From contig NZ_CP025536.1 of NCBI RefSeq assembly GCF_002953735.1, forward strand, positions 130,001 through 194,000: a stretch of 64,000 bases of DNA, read 5' to 3'. Below, piece by piece: positions 42,732 through 42,884 of this stretch. How positions within the stretch are numbered: position 1 is the stretch's first letter; each line of letters begins with the position of its first letter. The notes under the pieces were generated by a model. The model searched no databases. It saw nothing but the letters and a program-made list of their open reading frames with translations, and was not told where the DNA came from. The DNA comes from Streptococcus pluranimalium. Lineage in GTDB: Bacteria; Bacillota; Bacilli; Lactobacillales; Streptococcaceae. Position numbers and translations under genes: made by a program.

Positions 42732-42749
42732 AGGAATAGAAAGGAGATA

Positions 42750-42870
42750 GGGCTAGCTCGTGCTAAGTTTAACTGAATACGGGCTACGGACGGCTGCAAA
42801 AAGATGAACCTTGTTTAGACGCTCGCGTCGTCAACAGGTTCCCTATTTTGCTATTGTCCGCTTAACGCCC
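42750..42870 (+). mobile_element. Structured insert between groES and groEL (MITE-like)
   Basis: About 121 GC-richer bases separate AAAGGAGAT (42740-42748) from the groEL ATG (42885). The insert folds into one long hairpin: GGGC/GCCC, CGGAC (42787) with GTCCG (42856), GCAAAA (42796) with TTTTGC (42846), GAACCT (42806) with AGGTTC (42836) and GACG-CTCG-CGTC at the tip (42818-42829). It has no ORF. No second copy is visible in this window. Confidence 0.5.
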
Positions 42871-42884
42871 TTTATATCTTAATT

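Follow-up and report, generated by a model that had tools for sequence, protein, structure and literature searches.

The insert that separates groES from groEL in Streptococcus pluranimalium is one copy of a dispersed streptococcal repeat. It occupies positions 42735-42887 of the window, the whole 64,000-nucleotide stretch that was analysed. In our reading it likely belongs to a structured repeat that is, or once was, mobile and that in front of start codons would serve as a portable, structure-bridged split ribosome-binding site. A module of this kind would carry AGAAAGGA at one end, followed by a branched fold of usually 100-180 nt, a short tail and the start codon.

The insert between groES and groEL

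The features of the junction, together with a second copy of the element found elsewhere in the window, are as follows.

42447..42731, + strand: groES, the upstream gene (open reading frame; named by sequence and position)
42735..42887, + strand: whole element from Shine-Dalgarno (SD) sequence to ATG, matched by covariance model R1 (161.5 bits, E 9.2e-31; this copy is one of the 17 on which R1 was built)
42738..42745, + strand: distal SD of groEL, AGAAAGGA, the 5' edge of the module (sequence)
42744..42753, + strand: outer closing helices, 5' arm (minimum-energy fold; the first two bases overlap the SD)
42754..42786, + strand: 5' side hairpin, a variable branch (predicted fold; its form differs among copies)
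42787..42860, + strand: long central arm with conserved internal loops, AAAAAGAT / CCTATTTT (fold; core helices covary)
42867..42880, + strand: outer closing helices, 3' arm, and conserved TATC tail (fold; 4 nt are left before the ATG)
42885..44507, + strand: groEL (open reading frame; NCBIfam TIGR02348)
51145..51279, - strand: second, diverged copy, antisense to a + strand gene (rpsB, by eye) and ending 3' on that gene's stop codon (35.5 bits, E 3.4e-5)

The original prediction had placed a good ribosome site at 42740-42748, and AAAGGAGAT is indeed found there. The site lies far from the groEL start, as had been claimed, although 136 bases are counted between AAAGGAGAT and the ATG at 42885 instead of the 137 given; the distance is 136 or 139 bases depending on the SD motif counted. 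The 14 bases directly preceding the ATG are TTTATATCTTAATT. The insert had also been called GC-richer than its flanks, and positions 42750-42870 have a GC content of 50.4%; the 300 bases upstream have 40.7%, the downstream flank 37.7% and the window as a whole 39.4%. The strong fold that had been claimed was recovered as well, since 42730-42900 folds at -51.8 kcal/mol compared with -39.4 (sd 3.9) for shuffled sequences (z = -3.19). In the minimum-energy fold the outer helix pairs 42744-42748 with 42876-42880 and 42749-42753 with 42867-42871, occupying two bases of the SD, and the AUG lies inside a weak helix of three pairs. A terminator is disfavoured, as the two terminator-like sites within 42300-43000 both fall outside the element. 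With homologues at unrelated loci and covarying core pairs, the groEL insert is beyond chance.

A dispersed repeat family and its genomic contexts

A search for further copies by BLASTN, suggested in the original prediction, was carried out with a 158-base query. It recovered one further, partial copy from the S. pluranimalium genome, and 107 of 147 genomes across the genus gave matches. Among 31 fetched loci, 29 could be read as an SD, an element and a start codon (before groEL, thrS, purB, dnaJ, carB and others), and two, L017 and L027, were set aside. The covariance model R1 was made from an alignment, A1, of 17 SD-bearing copies. At E 0.001, R1 found matches in 144 of 147 Streptococcus genomes. 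The S. pluranimalium genome holds 21 copies at E 0.00223 or better, and seven further genomes hold 16 to 55 copies each. In a sample of the family, all 28 of the 28 Streptococcus genomes listed had a match, compared with 4 of 51 genomes of other genera, all weak; a sample of the order gave weak matches in 8 genomes of another family. Three loci, probably outside the genus (L076-L078), carry core-only matches of 44-47 bits over model positions 45-137, with similar internal loops. Among named genomes, an exact 24-base pattern was found on 11 contigs, all of them Streptococcus and all confirmed by R1, from species that include gallolyticus, pseudopneumoniae, moroccensis, plurextorum, merionis and devriesei.

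The copies lie at many unrelated loci and also form inverted pairs and tandem arrays, the latter repeating every 115 bases or so. The mobile element first suggested is supported as a dispersed family, whose members would have moved in the past. Two head-to-tail arrays of this period were seen at G126:C1:312416-313145 (L271) and G000:C1:1315890-1316365 (L086), and the inner units of the G126 array have no SD. The target duplication proposed earlier, a repeated ATA, is unsupported, because its 3' ATA sits in a TATC-like tail that, by a loose pattern, ends 119 of the 129 matches whatever their context. No Rfam family (4227 searched) matched the element at the gathering cut-off, nor up to E 5 over 42650-42950; elsewhere in the window, a Lacto-rpoB RNA motif was found at 5111-5169 (Rfam RF01709, 51.7 bits). 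Comparisons with phages and plasmids gave no match over the element. A 16-base pattern occurred in 26 viral contigs, none of which was confirmed by the covariance model (best E 0.098). One copy (L085:1501-1639) lies directly 5' of a gene that has its own SD and was read by eye as a phage tape-measure gene, and elements may also occur in such prophage-like DNA. A literature search, at the level of titles and the openings of abstracts, found no description or name of the repeat family, which is weak evidence as few subscription papers were covered.

In eight genomes 200 copies were counted, and the contexts of 130 were taken (for G126, 10 of 55); an R1 search over 99 loci, comprising these context loci and three groEL loci, gave 129 matches. 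The start-codon position is the commonest single context seen, with 55 matches abutting a start codon, and copies of this class are present in all eight genomes, 2 to 14 each among the matches. Another 29 run antisense to a gene and reach its stop codon with their 3' end, several of them at ribosomal protein genes (by eye); 10 lie just 5' of an ordinary SD, and 35 are in other positions, arrays and partial matches included. Antisense copies at stop codons were noted at obgE in the S. pluranimalium genome and, by eye, at rpsB, rpsH, rpsZ, rpsO and dnaK in other streptococci. That most matches lie away from start codons favours a different explanation, in which the element is a tolerated, MITE-like parasite of untranslated gaps, the distal SD is irrelevant, and starts are found through the AU-rich tail, S1-like binding or upstream coupling. 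We regard this as quite unlikely, for reasons that come with the SD and the closing helix below.

Copies avoid coding sequence: a single one of the 130 was flagged inside a gene call, and that copy abuts a start codon. Coding sequence thus seems intolerant of the element, which makes it very improbable that the element is excised from the mRNA and the SD and ATG rejoined. Excision would leave a normal SD-ATG spacing, and the ends of the element do lie close together in the fold, but no known RNA family matches it.

NCBIfam named 18 of 19 downstream proteins tested, the 19th having no family. The genes named are groEL, dnaJ, parC, prmA, mutM, hisS, proS, ftsE, thrS, purB, carB, alaS, deoD, prfA and ksgA, together with fragments of uvrA, pheT and dihydrolipoyl dehydrogenase that scored below the curated cut-off. 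Translation of chaperones and tRNA synthetases is indispensable, and some of the genes behind the element are essential. Both groEL and dnaJ are heat-shock genes, which fits a cis-regulatory RNA switch that would respond to heat, a protein or a metabolite by opening or closing initiation, bridging being one of its states. The overlap of the outer helix with the SD in the groEL copy agrees with such a switch, as do two GGG(C) stretches in several copies that could compete for one partner. Against it, the downstream genes have no common theme, Rfam gave no match, and sequences and architecture are too variable for a single ligand; we hold a switch to be possible but rather unlikely.

At orthologous loci, the original expectation that element-free sites exist was borne out at 25 of 30 groEL junctions and 3 of 30 dnaJ loci. 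The groEL junctions, located with groES as the query, were the best-scoring of 58 genomes with a match and were read by eye. A recognisable element is present in three, the S. pluranimalium junction, L164 and L163, the last diverged at 40.8 bits. Two others (L166 and L168) have other, shorter hairpins that could be due to chance, as closure also arises in 129 and 199 of 500 shuffles, respectively. In the 25 element-free junctions the gap is at most 22 nt in 20 and longer in five (L165, L170, L177, L179 and L183); that of L165 holds a different repeat, possibly resembling pneumococcal BOX. Other copies exist, then, and the groEL spacer is not equally long in all streptococci, both of which fit the insertion that had been proposed. 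For dnaJ, 27 of 30 loci (the best-scoring of 59 genomes) read as an SD, 86-179 nt of folded RNA and an ATG, with very different sequences; a compact three-way junction (L274) stands at one end of their shapes and long composites (L276, L281) at the other. The remaining three have no SD, by the patterns used, within 190 nt.

The Shine-Dalgarno sequence at the 5' end of the element

The presence of an SD at the 5' end of a copy depends on whether that copy abuts a start codon. An SD was found in 54 of 55 start-abutting copies versus 8 of 74 elsewhere, and after dereplication to 93 copies in 35 of 35 versus 3 of 58, all context classes having been found with the one model R1, itself trained on SD-bearing copies. 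The exception among the 55, L215, appears by eye to have a start further on with its own SD. Some of the eight SD-bearing copies away from starts are upstream members of SD-element-SD-element-ATG chains, and five have another GAAAGG within the printed 3' flank.

The type of SD is stereotyped. The 54 bridged copies all contain the core GAAAGG, as AGAAAGGA in 46, TGAAAGGA in six, and CGAAAGGA and AGAAAGGT in one each. Ordinary genes whose proximal SD is strong (127, from crude gene calls with starts picked by SD strength) have GAAAGGA in six cases and AGAAAGGA in one. Element-free groEL and dnaJ loci mostly have other SDs, although L169 has AGAAAGGG. Since this SD is stereotyped in bridged copies and rare in ordinary genes, it probably travels with the module or is required by it. 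The idea that an element had jumped in behind a pre-existing SD is therefore doubtful; what stands of it is the dispersed element family. Both the stereotyped SD and its dependence on the start codon argue against a tolerated parasite.

To these 54 copies, pairing energies with the 3' tail of 16S rRNA, using what we take to be its sequence, were assigned. The mean is -11.8 kcal/mol for the SD region, 107-152 nt from the start codon, and -2.8 kcal/mol for the last 20 nt before the start. The proximal site reaches -6 kcal/mol or lower in seven copies and is weaker in 47 of 54. Among 219 genes that lack the element's tail (crude gene calls), 74 also have a weak proximal SD, a point on the side of the parasite, so that a weak proximal site is not telling in itself.

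A strong SD at the far end could also drive a short open reading frame within the insert, coupled to the main gene. An ATG, GTG or TTG does stand 3-14 nt past the SD in 19 of 54 copies; the other 35 have no such codon, ATG accounts for only 3 of the 25 codons seen, and none of these start codons is in frame with the gene. A leader peptide is accordingly scarcely credible, and the split ribosome-binding site is the reading pursued below.

Fold, closure and the putative bridge to the start codon

The fold of the element is under selection. A1, whose 17 rows were aligned without fitting to the structure, shows double changes at 11 of the 21 pairs predicted. In A3, which like A4 was fitted to the R1 structure, 128 distinct rows give double changes in 21 of 21 pairs against 16.1 from shuffles. 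Its cells pair in 95.0% of cases versus 68.5% when shuffled, and its covariation score is 0.663, compared with 0.176 when shuffled and at most 0.135 when slid. Restricting the alignment to dnaJ (23 rows, fitted) leaves double changes at 17 of 21 pairs, where shuffles give 10.8, and pairing in 96.1% of cells, where shuffles give 74.8%. The variety of further pair types at dnaJ is ordinary, since 82 of 300 shuffles have an equally high number. Leaders are also more stable than their shuffles, at -42.1 versus -26.9 kcal/mol (48 of 86 leaders after dereplication).

Comparison of the two strands points to selection on RNA at starts. The element strand folds better than its complement in start-codon copies (mean difference -2.62 kcal/mol), and the other classes range from +2.10 to +4.52. 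The difference between start copies and others has p = 4e-7 after dereplication, a value made too strong by shared ancestry. The asymmetry is absent in eight sense copies 5' of an ordinary SD (+2.10). Counts of G-U versus A-C are in the expected direction but small (22/14 before starts, 7/11 in antisense copies).

The original prediction had a hairpin bringing the SD back to the ATG. What stood is the predicted closure near both, with covariation of the closing helix there; the controls on exterior loop and tail pairing were neutral. The closure tests used 57 dereplicated leaders of 170 collected, in which the SD lies a median of 130 nt from the start (37-179 nt). The mean number of unpaired exterior bases is the same as in shuffles (12.9 versus 13.1; 48 leaders), because in any folded RNA the two ends come near each other. 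Two further tests were run after this one had shown no difference. For the 14-base stretch that follows the SD, pairing with the 3' end of the same leader is worth -8.99 kcal/mol and pairing with foreign ends -6.36 kcal/mol, a difference reached in 0 of 300 permutations, although shared ancestry of the copies makes such p-values too strong and, in short-armed copies, the 14-base stretch includes part of the core helix. The own 3' end was better than the foreign median in 46 of 57 leaders. A single closing helix near both ends, starting at most 6 nt from the SD and ending at most 14 nt from the ATG (limits set after the folds had been seen), was found in 45 of 57 leaders against 11.7 expected. 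Pairing of the extreme tail was not stronger before starts than in other contexts (p 0.32). This likeness of the tail between contexts, and its AU-rich sequence before the AUG, agree with a parasite whose tail happens to be used, yet the covarying closing helix speaks against one. In the predicted folds the tail is mostly unpaired before the start codon (median 12 nt). The predicted effective spacing has a median of 13 nt, versus 5-12 nt (median 8, n = 6) in ordinary genes with GAAAGGA.

In textbook initiation, the SD and the start codon are no more than about 5-10 nt apart. For the split ribosome-binding site we propose, the 30S subunit would pair with the distal SD, and the closed fold would place the start codon at a usable, near-normal distance from it. 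The ribosome would then initiate at the AUG, the insert being neither read nor melted. An element that has reached a start may be unable to shed its fold again without sacrificing the translation of a needed gene.

Split sites with an intervening structure have been described in phage T4. As reported in PMC3014915, genes 38 and 25 have SD-AUG distances of 22 and 27 nt, which are shortened by RNA structure between them, and destabilising mutations lower initiation (PMC3014915). The streptococcal element resembles these sites, as they are described there, in its extended SD-AUG distance and the predicted RNA structure in between. Unlike these sites of two phage genes, it is about five times longer, multi-branched, repeated, placed before many cellular genes and equipped with a stereotyped SD. 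BOX, RUP and SPRITE are likewise short, dispersed, structured and partly modular streptococcal repeats, which according to PMC3049150 hardly occur outside pneumococcus, S. mitis and, for the BOX type, S. suis. In contrast to that described distribution, the new family is present in 144 of 147 genomes of the genus and often lies between an SD and a start codon. In translational bypassing, exemplified in PMC5009743 by T4 gene 60 and the mitochondrial byp elements, ribosomes also skip a non-coding insert, as they would in our proposal; bypassing as described there takes place within coding sequence during elongation, whereas the streptococcal element precedes the start codon. The best reading of these comparisons is a new repeat family that would work like a split ribosome-binding site of the T4 type.

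The proposal can be extended, more speculatively, to the whole genus. Mobile initiation modules, each with its own SD and a fold that re-attaches this SD to a start more than 100 nt away, would have colonised essential housekeeping genes and now form a folding-dependent layer of translation control. We put this extension forward tentatively and consider it more doubtful than the module itself. To our knowledge, structure-bridged initiation is known from two short cases in phage T4, and translation of many cellular genes in streptococci seems to begin with more than 100 nt of folded insert between SD and start codon. If this is true, structure-bridged initiation would be a widespread and testable feature of cells, and the copies would make up a natural library of bridge designs. 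It would also hint at why predictors of start sites may find no SD for such genes, and would exemplify a repeat that has been either domesticated for the start of translation or tolerated there.
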